Assembly (NCBI GenBank): GCA_009746045.1
Contig: RPFO01000102.1
Coordinates: 140,001-204,000, forward strand
Direction of reading: 5' to 3'
Length of the DNA: 64,000 nt
Source: Mesostigma viride
Taxonomy: Eukaryota; Streptophyta; Mesostigmatophyceae; Mesostigmatales; Mesostigmataceae
Shown here: in pieces, positions 250 to 62,471 of the stretch
Numbering within the stretch: position 1 is the first letter of the stretch
Layout: each line of letters starts with the position of its first letter
The notes under the pieces: model-generated
Database searches by the model: none
The model's input: only the letters and a program-made list of their open reading frames with translations
Told to the model about the DNA's origin: nothing
Program-made: the position numbers and the translations under genes

Positions 250-560
250 CCATACCTTGAGTGCGCTATGCAGCAGTGCAGCACCTCGAGCAGTAGATCA
301 GAAGAGCAGAGGCCTCCTAGTCGATTATACCATGGTATACATATACAAATACAACTCTACCTGAGTGCCTTGTGCAGCACCTCGAGCAATGGATCAGAAG
401 AGCAGAAAAACTCGGGTTTCAATGCGAATCACACGATCATGATTACATCGTACTGGAGCTCCTTACCTTTGATATGCTATCATGAGTACATCGTGCTAGA
501 GTTCCTTAACTTTGATACACTTTGATGATCACATCGTACTAGAGTTCCTTACCTTGAGCG
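250..560 (-). repeat. Decoy copies of the exon 5 donor edge of the TroA-like gene
   Basis: On the minus strand the true exon 5 end reads GCGCTCAAG|GTAAGG near 553. Related edges follow in the intron near 519 (TTAAGG) and 467 (AAAGGTAAGGAGCTCC). More distant copies near 256-300 and 362-400 repeat the CTGCA...GCACTCAAG|GTATGG pattern with a GCTCTTCTGATC block. This is a local tandem duplication of a splice-donor segment that has since diverged. Confidence 0.55.
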
Positions 561-3500
561 CATCATGCAGCTCTTCCGGCGTGGCGTACGAGCGCATGAG
601 CGAGGAGTCCACGTTGCGGCCGCCAGCATCCTCGGTCAGCTGCAGCATGTACTCGTTGTCGCGGATGGAGAAATCCTGTTGGCCGGCAACACGCCACCGC
701 CGCAATGTTATCAATTCACCGCCAGCAACCCGTCACCACCCCATCCCCCGACATTAAAAAGAAAAGAAGCTTAGCCTCTCGAAAAAGAAGCCGCTGCTTT
801 AAGTTCCCACGGCACCAAGGAAACATATAAAAATGAGCAGGAAGGGAAGTAGGCAAACGAATATACCGAGGCATGGAGAGCGAGTTATTGATAGAGGAAG
901 CAGATAGCGATGAGCGAGAAGGGAAGTAGGCAAAGGAAAAAGCCGAGGCACGGATAGAGATACTAAGCTAAAAGCGGCAGGTGATTATTACGAGTGCGTT
1001 ACTAAGATATGCGCGGCAGCTAATTATGACGAGCCAGCTAGAAAAGATTACGGACAGCGAATTGGAAAGAAAGTCTGATGGGAAAAGACAGAGTTGAGCA
1101 TGACTTGATGACAATCACCGCCGAATGGGCGCAAGCAGCACCAAAAATGCAGTGGACGCGCAAAGCAAGGCATTCATTATCAGTTAATAGCACGAATGGT
1201 ATTGTCAAGTGATAGTAGCAGGACATTTTCCGTCAATTAACAACCAGAACCCAAACATGCGTCCTGCAGCGTCCAAGCATGATGCACCCAGAGAACGCTT
1301 GTGGCACGTACCACACAGCCCAAACAGAGAATTCAACCCGAATAAACACCCAAGCCAAGCATTATATTTGGAATAAAAGATCCATGCCACCGTCGGCGAG
1401 CCCGCTCGCATCGCCTAATGTCTACTACTATGTATACCGTAGTGGCCCTTATATGTGTACGCTTAATTATCGTACGAAGAGTTTTTGGAATTTTTGTTAC
1501 GTGTACGACGACTTTTGGGTTTTTTTTTAAAAAGTACGTAGGTATATTGTCAAGGTATATACTTGAGGGTACTCTACAGGTTTACCTCTGGGGGGCAACA
1601 TTACTGTATATTGACTACCTGAAGGAGATTTCTTGGGTTGTACGAGGCCGGAAAGAGGTTTTTTTTGGGCATGTACAAGGGCGATTCGTACATAATTAAG
1701 CGTACTGATATAAGGGCCACTACGGTATAACATAACATATTGTCTGTGTTTATAACATAGCATACTGTCTGTGTATATATAACATAGCATATTGTCTGTG
1801 TTTATAACATAGCATACTGTCTGTGTATATATAACATAGCATATATGTCATGTATAAATAACATGATTCAACGAAAGCATTTACTACTGATCAATATTAA
1901 TGAGACAACCAGCGCAGGCCAGAAATCTGGAGAATCCGGACCATGGCAACTCAAGCCTGCGGTTATCTTTACCGCGTTTTCGAGTCGTTCATGATGATGG
2001 ATATGAACGGAGATGGAAATGTGTAGCCTTGTTTGTTGAAATTATGGCTTGCTAACGCTAAGAGCGACTAGACTACCTGAACGGTGGGGCCAGAAACATC
2101 TTGCGTGATCAGGGTGTGTGTTTCGAGCCTAACTGGCCGGGAGTGTCTAGAGGTGAGCACCATTGCTGCGATCACTCTCCCACCATTTACGAGGAAATAA
2201 CCGCACATGTATAAACCACAGACAAAACCGCAGACAAAACCGCAGACAAAACCACAGACAAAACCACAAACAAAAGCACAGACGAAACCACAGACCAAAC
2301 CATAGACAAAAAGGCACGCACCGCGTAATCGGAATAAAATATCCACGCGACTGTCGGCTTGTCCGGCCGAGAGCGCGCCATCGTGCTGAAGCAGTTGTAG
2401 CGGGCGTTGATGTCGGCAAAATAAGCGTTGGCCTCGGCCTCCTTGTTGAAGAAGAGGGAGAGGTACTTGATCCACTCAGCACGCTGCAGGTGGGGGCAGA
2501 GGGGACAGCGAGCGCACACATGGAGGCGCGCTTATCGTGGGGTAAGTAGTGGCGAGGAGATGGGTGCCTTACCAAGGAGAGGGAGGGGAACTTGATCCCA
2601 TCGGCACGCTGCGAGCGGGGGGAGAGTTGAGCCAGGCAATGAGAGGACATGGGTGAGGGAGCTGTATGTGCTACGATGCTATTAAACGAACAGGCGTGCT
2701 GCAGAGGAACCGGATCAACCTCGATGCACAGCAGCTGGGTGAGATGAGCAAAAGAGGGGGCATGAGTGAGCGATGTGTTATGACCTCATGACCTTAACGA
2801 CTATAACCGTTCATCGATGGGCGCGTCATCCGCTTGGCGTGCTGTGTGAGATTGAGATAGCGATACAGCGACCAATACAGTGACCGATACAGTGACCGAT
2901 ACAGTCACCAATACAGCGACCAATACAACGACCAATACAGCCCAAACAAGGGTGGGAACAGTGGCACTGTGAAACAGCAACCAAGTGGAGGTGGAAGCGC
3001 ACACAGGCGGTGGTGCAAGGGCGACCAAGTGGCGGTGGAAGAATACCCTCGCCCAAGAGGTTATCCCCCTTTTCCAAGCCTAGTTACCTTGTCAAGAGGG
3101 TTCTCCCTTAGTAAAGTAGGAATAGTGCTCACCTTGGCGCGCCGCAAGTGAAAGAGGTTATCCCCCTTTTCCAAGCCTAGTTACCTTCTCAAGAGGGTTC
3201 TCCCTTAGTAAAGTAGGAATAGTGCTCACCTTGGCGCGCCGCAAGTGAAAGGACAACGGGTGGGGGTGGGGGGTCGAGCGACCAGTACGGTGCCATGTGA
3301 GGCACAAGCCATGGACTTGCCTTCAATACCCCGTTCCTTACCCTACCAAACGCAATACCCCGTACCAAGCGCGTTTAATCCTGGCAGCCACCTCCGCTTT
3401 CAGGCATCGCCACGCAAGCGGCCGCCATACTAGAATCCATGAGAATCACACTACACTGCAAAGCACACGGCTGCGTCACGTTCAAAACATCACACTACGT

Positions 3501-62343: not shown

Positions 62344-62457
62344 TCAATTGAAAAAGTACTCGGACTTGAGCACATCGTTGATGTTCAGTTTTCCCGTCTT
62401 GGGGACGGGGGGGAAATCCCCGATGTCCGGAAATCCCTGCTTGAACTCCTCCAGCAG
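62344..62457 (-). CDS. RPOT: Phage-type (mitochondrial/plastid) RNA polymerase, last exon
   Basis: The minus strand encodes 37 residues after a CTGGCAG acceptor: LLEEFKQGFPDIGDFPPVPK, then LNINDVLKSEYFFN and TGA. Single-subunit T7-like organellar RNA polymerases of plants and algae end in the pattern FPPLP-RGDFDL-EVL-SPYFFN, where the final Phe-rich tail lies at the active site. The match in spacing and in the last 12 residues is strong. This enzyme transcribes organellar genes after import. The rest of the gene is to the right of the window: no further exon is visible up to 64000, so the last intron exceeds 1.5 kb. Confidence 0.8.
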   Translation of the reverse strand: MLEEFKQGFPDIGDFPPVPKTGKLNINDVLKSEYFFN

Positions 62458-62471
62458 CTGCCAGACGAGAA

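Follow-up and report, generated by a model that had tools for sequence, protein, structure and literature searches.

Intron gain through tandem duplication is an established model, as set out in the accessible portions of two reports (PMC3443670, PMC2891723). Tandem duplications that touch existing exon-intron borders have also been described. In the potato RdRp gene a tandem duplication whose copies differ by ten nucleotides crosses an intron-exon boundary, and a second one, of 83 bp, lies within the first intron (PMC4974935, in the part available). Human segmentally duplicated genes carry minisatellites at exon-intron boundaries, of about 30 bp repeated four times, that alter exon/intron structure and for which slippage or unequal crossover has been proposed (PMC2812944, accessible text). 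Here we describe a related phenomenon in the streptophyte Mesostigma viride. In a 64,000-nucleotide stretch of contig RPFO01000102.1 (hereafter the window), which we infer to be nuclear DNA of this alga, and in genes elsewhere in the assembly, the edges of coding exons are copied, mostly together with their splice sites, into the adjoining non-coding DNA. The reading that we favour is neutral local tandem duplication filtered by selection, which would probably make these copies a genome-wide variant of a known process.

The Mesostigma copies differ from the described systems in several ways. In potato it is the acceptor side that was duplicated, and a new intron with RNA support arose (PMC4974935, same part), whereas in Mesostigma mostly donor sides are copied, in many genes, and the copies are known here from sequence alone. 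The human set, according to the available text of PMC2812944, consists of recent paralogues selected as variable; the Mesostigma genes are conserved ones, most of which were not chosen for their repeats. In the Drosophila cases of intron gain, exonic sequence with splice signals was likewise tandemly duplicated (PMC2891723, accessible portion), but the model, as given there, needs an exonic AGGT to be duplicated into a new intron, while in Mesostigma the donor or acceptor edge of an intron that already exists is copied into it. We were not able to find a description of frequent donor-edge copies, genome-wide or in Mesostigma, in searches of an open-access library, outside which most subscription journals lie.

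Results

The window contains four spliced genes: a TroA-like gene on the minus strand, a vasculin-like gene and an LRR gene on the plus strand, and the end of RPOT on the minus strand. Each of their 28 exon or coding-sequence edges was searched for an edge-crossing copy that outscored the best of 200 dinucleotide shuffles, and significant direct copies were found at 6 of the 28: the vasculin exon 2 donor (one copy) and exon 5 donor (six), the TroA exon 3 acceptor (three), exon 4 acceptor (one) and exon 5 donor (three), and the RPOT stop (two). With mononucleotide shuffles a score of 33 was reached in none of 350 edge scans, so the real copies exceed chance. A preliminary description of this DNA had named eight edges as copied with their sites, in what it took to be all three spliced genes. 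Six of these edges are significant, and those of the TroA exon 4 donor and the vasculin exon 3 donor are not; three genes do have edge copies, but a fourth, the LRR gene, has none at its four edges.

The largest set belongs to the vasculin-like gene (plus strand). The 3' end of its exon 5 with the donor (16385-16438, edge after 16438 in the splice model) is the parent of an array of six copies lying between 16480 and 16991 (16480-16545, 16571-16636, 16662-16727, 16756-16816, 16847-16884 and 16937-16991), which are 82-98% identical, spaced by 77, 91 and 84 bp, and all six of which keep the GT. The end of exon 2 with its donor (12994-13056, edge after 13050) recurs at 13187-13249 as 57 exonic and 6 intronic nt at 81% identity, with no similarity over what would be the remainder of a tandem unit. 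The claimed copy of the exon 3 donor (13807-13818) is a 12-nt match with an uncorrected p of 0.02 that is not significant after correction.

In the TroA-like gene (minus strand), the acceptor edge of exon 3 (4317-4585, edge 4585) is copied within 4811-5392, at 4811-4857 (89% identity), 4947-5001 and 5110-5160, all three with the AG kept, and an exon-only copy lies at 5370-5392. For exon 4 (2322-2483, acceptor edge 2483, donor 2322) an acceptor-edge copy at 2574-2626 is 81% identical across 53 nt; a copy of its 3' coding end at 1370-1397, which reads RAGSPTVAWIFYSKY in frame, ends before the donor. The donor edge of exon 5 (553-675, edge 553) has copies within 239-512, at 482-512 (GT changed to TT), 439-469 and 239-274, the first two of which sit in a 43-bp array.

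The last RPOT exon with its stop (62344-62457, minus strand), identified through a Pfam RNA_pol match, has two copies of its terminal coding edge with the stop within 62244-62313 (62274-62313 and 62244-62266), in a unit of about 48 bp. An 885-bp (AGTAT)n array with 98% matches occupies 62473-63357, in the intron directly before this exon. Beyond the window, upstream in the gene, lie further segments that we take to be RPOT exons, based on known RPOT motifs together with splice sites. There, copies above all shuffles were found at 4 of 8 donors (exons D, G, H and I), those of D, G and H crossing the edge and that of I ending exactly at the donor; exon H has at least eight donor copies. Edge-crossing copies above all shuffles were seen at none of the 9 RPOT acceptors beyond the window. 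The exon D boundary and the exon H copy boundaries are off by one base. The intron that separates exons H and I closes with GACGTTTGCCAG, which is similar to GACGTTCGCAG, the last letters of exon H before it, as would be expected had tandem duplication given rise to this intron.

Edge copying in our sample is not confined to the window. The assembly that was searched (439.9 Mb, 2243 contigs) gave 58 chaperonin matches (PF00118), from which 30 loci and 27 more stretches were taken, and adaptin matches, for which donors only were scored (8 of about 21, as judged by pairing of matches). At a score of at least 36, copies were found at 8 of 55 chaperonin donors, 2 of 50 chaperonin acceptors and 1 of 8 adaptin donors. 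The first chaperonin count had dropped 12 of 82 edges as doubtful, which had removed tandem donors. Rescoring of five of the six dropped donors (donor C777:144960 and the six dropped acceptors were left out) placed two at 36 or above (C1702:1285905 and C1546:898588) and one at 34, with two having no copy. Among fifteen further exons found with tblastn no donor reached 36 (one scored 34), and an acceptor score of 50 was recorded once (C2122:828451). This acceptor was omitted because its edge shows CACCACCACCAG, of CACCAC type; counting it in gives 3 of 50 acceptors and p=0.22 for donors versus acceptors. The added donors and the adaptins entered the counts without a complexity filter. Splice-site scoring was tied between the copies at C1702:1285905 and at C1407:82672.

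Two contigs, C1641 and C887, share 97% identity over 3 kb containing the same chaperonin exon and are likely haplotypes or a recent duplicate; the donor copy is kept in one and partly deleted in the other. A near full-length chaperonin match at C2011:1347332-1348840 lies in a single open frame, whereas the other chaperonin genes here have many exons, and is possibly bacterial contamination.

The orientation and spacing of the copies point to how they arose. Direct copies were found at 11 of 54 donors and 4 of 54 acceptors and inverted copies at none of either (0/108 edges). Those in the best state of preservation stand head to tail, in units of 43-103 bp. Consecutive units are seen at vasculin exon 5, at RPOT exons G (103 bp, gapped) and H (83 bp), and at the chaperonin on C1468 (76 bp); the chaperonin edge C1702:1285905 has seven donors 48 bp apart within the 300 nt examined, and the adaptin on C1923 has a 71-bp unit. 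Local tandem duplication would therefore explain the copies. Other copies consist of the exon end plus a few intron nucleotides, for example -57 to +6, -37 to 0 and -33 to +8 relative to the edge. The remainder of the would-be unit is still similar (p<0.1) in 8 of 17 cases, an eighteenth being too short to score: vasculin exon 5, RPOT D, G and H, C1568, C1468, C777:140146 and the TroA exon 3 acceptor. When the four best cases are left out, remainder similarity in the 13 less well preserved ones combined gives p=0.0004.

These observations support the suggestion of the preliminary description that a genome-wide process of the slippage or unequal-exchange type is at work, as direct copies recur on several contigs, in genes that are not related to one another, and when best preserved stand head to tail. 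That description had also placed the process at exon borders, and here the answer depends on the comparison made. On a grid over the window (score 36, local direct copies), positives were 280 of 926 intron points, 24 of 111 near-edge points, 20 of 337 exon-interior points and 266 of 2888 intergenic points. When the repeat track was rotated against the gene structure no edge excess was seen in the window (5 of 22 edge points versus a rotation mean of 5.1, P=0.55). Chaperonin edges (8/70) likewise did not differ from unfiltered intron points (about 10.5%, being 11.4% and 9.6% on the two sides; p=0.70), and they exceeded unfiltered exon interiors (9/947, p=5e-6). We set the unfiltered intron control aside, since only 43 of its 214 interior repeats were complex and several of these 43 were the edge copies themselves, and report both comparisons. 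With complex sequence only and edge partners excluded, chaperonin intron points were positive at 165 of 3968 (4.2%) and exon-interior points at 6 of 601; in the window genes and RPOT, the figures were 206 of 1511 (13.6%) for complex non-edge intron points versus 6 of 349 for exon interiors. Measured against the 4.2% intron rate, acceptors in the independent genes show no excess (2/50). Donors with downstream copies number 9 of 63 in these genes, about one in seven (95% interval 8-25%).

The profile of local direct repeats along introns was drawn from 54 donors and 54 acceptors. It shows them to be commoner over the initial 300 nt of introns, where each point has 5-13 of 54, than over the final 300 nt, where it has 0-5 of 54.

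The fate of the copies was read from their mismatches and reading frames. Mismatches between exon and copy fall at 31/258, 33/268 and 56/267 at codon positions 1, 2 and 3 (position 3 versus 1 and 2, p=0.0016), in a set that includes three of the six vasculin exon 5 copies and a few weak alignments. A neutral copy of an exon that changes only at synonymous sites would give mismatches of k, k and up to 2k, and the pattern found, with positions 1 and 2 equal and position 3 at 1.7 times, fits neutral decay. Moreover, 18 of the 20 donor copies checked sit after an early in-frame stop, namely those of vasculin exons 2 and 5 and TroA exon 5 (10 in all) and of RPOT exon H (8), the copies of RPOT G and I being without one. 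Use of the copies as alternative coding exons was rejected on these stops, and using the one of vasculin exon 2 would change the reading frame. Stops, codon positions and the partial loss between C1641 and C887 thus give no sign of copy use, and the copies seem, from their sequence, to decay as harmless debris without purpose.

The gene models behind these edges vary in their basis. The TroA-like gene matches Mv13514, and the annotated protein P0028 fits exons 1, 3, 4 and 5 at 98-100%, exon 2 being positioned from its own sequence. The vasculin-like model consists of splice sites and an open frame, with a Pfam Vasculin match and liverwort relatives; no Mesostigma gene model was returned for it. 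The LRR gene (Mv13516, 36793-39353, plus strand) has an annotated intron at 36818-37657, and the open frame at 36978-39353 is 100% identical to jgi/Mesvir1 Mv13516 (P0001) across the matched part. Most of its annotated first intron (36793-37657 region) falls in the open frame that runs on into exon 2 (36978-39353), and a 75-bp tandem repeat of 2.4 units occupies 37236-37414 within the intron; translation may in truth begin at an ATG near 37120 and not in the tiny first exon.

For the Mesostigma viride NIES-296 assembly a mean intron of 1142 bp and 66% repeats have been given (PMC6947507, available portion). In the window most of 30000-31000 has at least 39 further genome copies at 98-99% identity and represents a young, abundant repeat family. 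A short motif like GGTTGCCTTGCGAAGCCGTAG recurs in both orientations in introns and intergenic DNA (approximate positions, by eye: 6750, 6909, 12454, 13104, 15360, 15770 and 18020) and is possibly a small dispersed repeat. The window contained no predicted tRNA and no Rfam match at gathering scores; eight low-threshold Rfam matches within 1-20000 were discarded, as all fell on a GCA/AGT microsatellite at about 3938-4129.

Discussion

We propose that short segments, at offsets of about 40-250 bp, are duplicated locally and mostly head to tail in Mesostigma viride genes, presumably by replication slippage, microhomology-mediated repair or unequal exchange, which our data do not tell apart. Selection would mostly remove duplications within coding exons, and intronic ones would persist. 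Where a duplication spans the 3' end of an exon, the real donor would stay first in the transcript and a spare exon end with its donor would enter the intron, so that the protein need not change. The spare copy could then drift, expand as a minisatellite, or erode through insertions and deletions. Under such a process borders would look special because edge copies, one partner of which is held by selection, stay recognisable longer. Acceptor copies stand at background level, perhaps since a copied acceptor lying upstream would be likelier to be misused, whereas the true donor precedes its copy, would be transcribed before it and would lie nearer to the exon's own acceptor. With large introns the splice sites closest across the exon are preferred (PMC9225289, accessible part). 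Since acceptors would gain the same protection from this rule, a deficit of acceptor copies, if real, would rather point to transcription order or branch-point scanning.

Several results weigh against this proposal. The remainder of the unit lacks similarity at p<0.1 in 9 of 17 cases, even though the matched exon-side part is 81-100% identical, and plain tandem duplication with even decay predicts some similarity there; the missing remainders need either fast intron turnover or short spaced copying. They would be expected if introns turn over fast and only the parent exon and its splice signal are held constant. The codon-position pattern is weaker in the chaperonins alone (11/106, 13/111 and 18/111). 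Finally, donors of the independent genes exceed the complex intron points (9/63 versus 165/3968, p=0.0013), in a Fisher test whose overlapping intron points overstate independence, and donors exceed acceptors when all genes, including RPOT and those of the preliminary description, are taken together (14/82 versus 4/69, p=0.043; independent genes only, 9/63 versus 2/50, p=0.11).

The last of these points would suit a process aimed at exon 3' ends, in which the first 30-200 nt of the intron would preferentially receive copies of the terminal 12-57 nt of the exon and the donor. Such copying could come, for instance, from template switching or from repair, linked either to transcription or to R-loops at donors. 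The donor rate above the 4.2% of introns speaks for such a process, as does the profile around the 54 donors, where copies are found at 11/54 at the edge itself, 7/54 at -30 and 0/54 at -60, followed by 5-7/54 from +15 to +60 and 9-13/54 from +75 to +105. In addition, the match of less preserved copies ends between -1 and +14 of the donor, with the 9 of 17 lacking a trace of the unit. Yet in the best preserved cases the copied unit is an ordinary tandem one and continues into the intron, an end of the match near +6 is where constraint on the parent stops, and no edge excess appears in the window or in the unfiltered chaperonins. The donor excess itself drops to p=0.017-0.080 if edge copies are detectable 1.5-2 times longer (a factor that we estimated), since divergence between a conserved exon and its copy proceeds more slowly than between two copies within introns. 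Longer detectability of conserved-sequence copies may explain much of the donor excess, and a real donor bias is possible. On balance we regard a process directed at exon 3' ends as doubtful; about equally tentative is the notion that duplication is biased to exon 3' ends and donors, which would be mutational hot spots (for example through template switching linked to transcription), with a splicing filter that asymmetrically removes acceptor copies. The outcome that the preliminary description had named as refuting its idea, borders duplicated no more often than intron positions, is seen in the window, in the unfiltered chaperonin comparison and, for acceptors, in the filtered one.

It is improbable that the copies are functional, as alternative or decoy splice sites or as extra U1-binding sites under selection. 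Splice dinucleotides are often retained: besides the vasculin exon 5 array, the GT is kept in the single exon 2 copy and in two of three TroA exon 5 copies, and the AG in all four TroA acceptor copies. Splice-site columns are identical at 118 of 123, compared with 396/470 for other exonic and 277/329 for other intronic columns, but this figure is inflated by near-identical array copies and by the choice of edge-crossing alignments. The GT is lost in the RPOT exon D and I copies and in one TroA copy. The neutral codon pattern, the 18 donor copies that follow in-frame stops (with RPOT G and I as exceptions) and the partial loss of a copy in one of two near-identical contigs also argue against function, and the idea in the preliminary description of a mechanism that makes alternative splice sites finds no support in them.

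An assembly artefact, in which unresolved heterozygosity or long-read errors were placed as tandem copies, is very unlikely: some copies are near-identical, and a 97-bp pair at 3055-3251 is 99% identical, but many others differ by as much as about 20%, arrays reach seven or more units, several contigs are involved, and the published assembly, if it is the same one, combined PacBio, Illumina and optical maps (PMC6947507, in the portion available). Just as little credence attaches to the copies being remnants of intron gain, with AGGT-bearing exon segments tandemly duplicated as in the Rogers model and the introns themselves being duplicates, since, the likeness of the end of RPOT intron H-I to the end of exon H aside, the copies examined lie inside an intron with a separate acceptor and the best preserved ones carry intron sequence beyond the donor.

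The spare copies bear on how the genes of this alga are read and may bear on how they evolve. Gene predictors can choose the wrong copy of a donor. If about one in seven donors have spare copies, Mesostigma would offer a natural test of how the spliceosome selects one of several competing donors that are almost identical. An asymmetry between donors and acceptors that held throughout the genome would help to tell whether a mutational hot spot or a splicing filter is at work. Spare copies at that frequency would also be raw material for new exons and introns.

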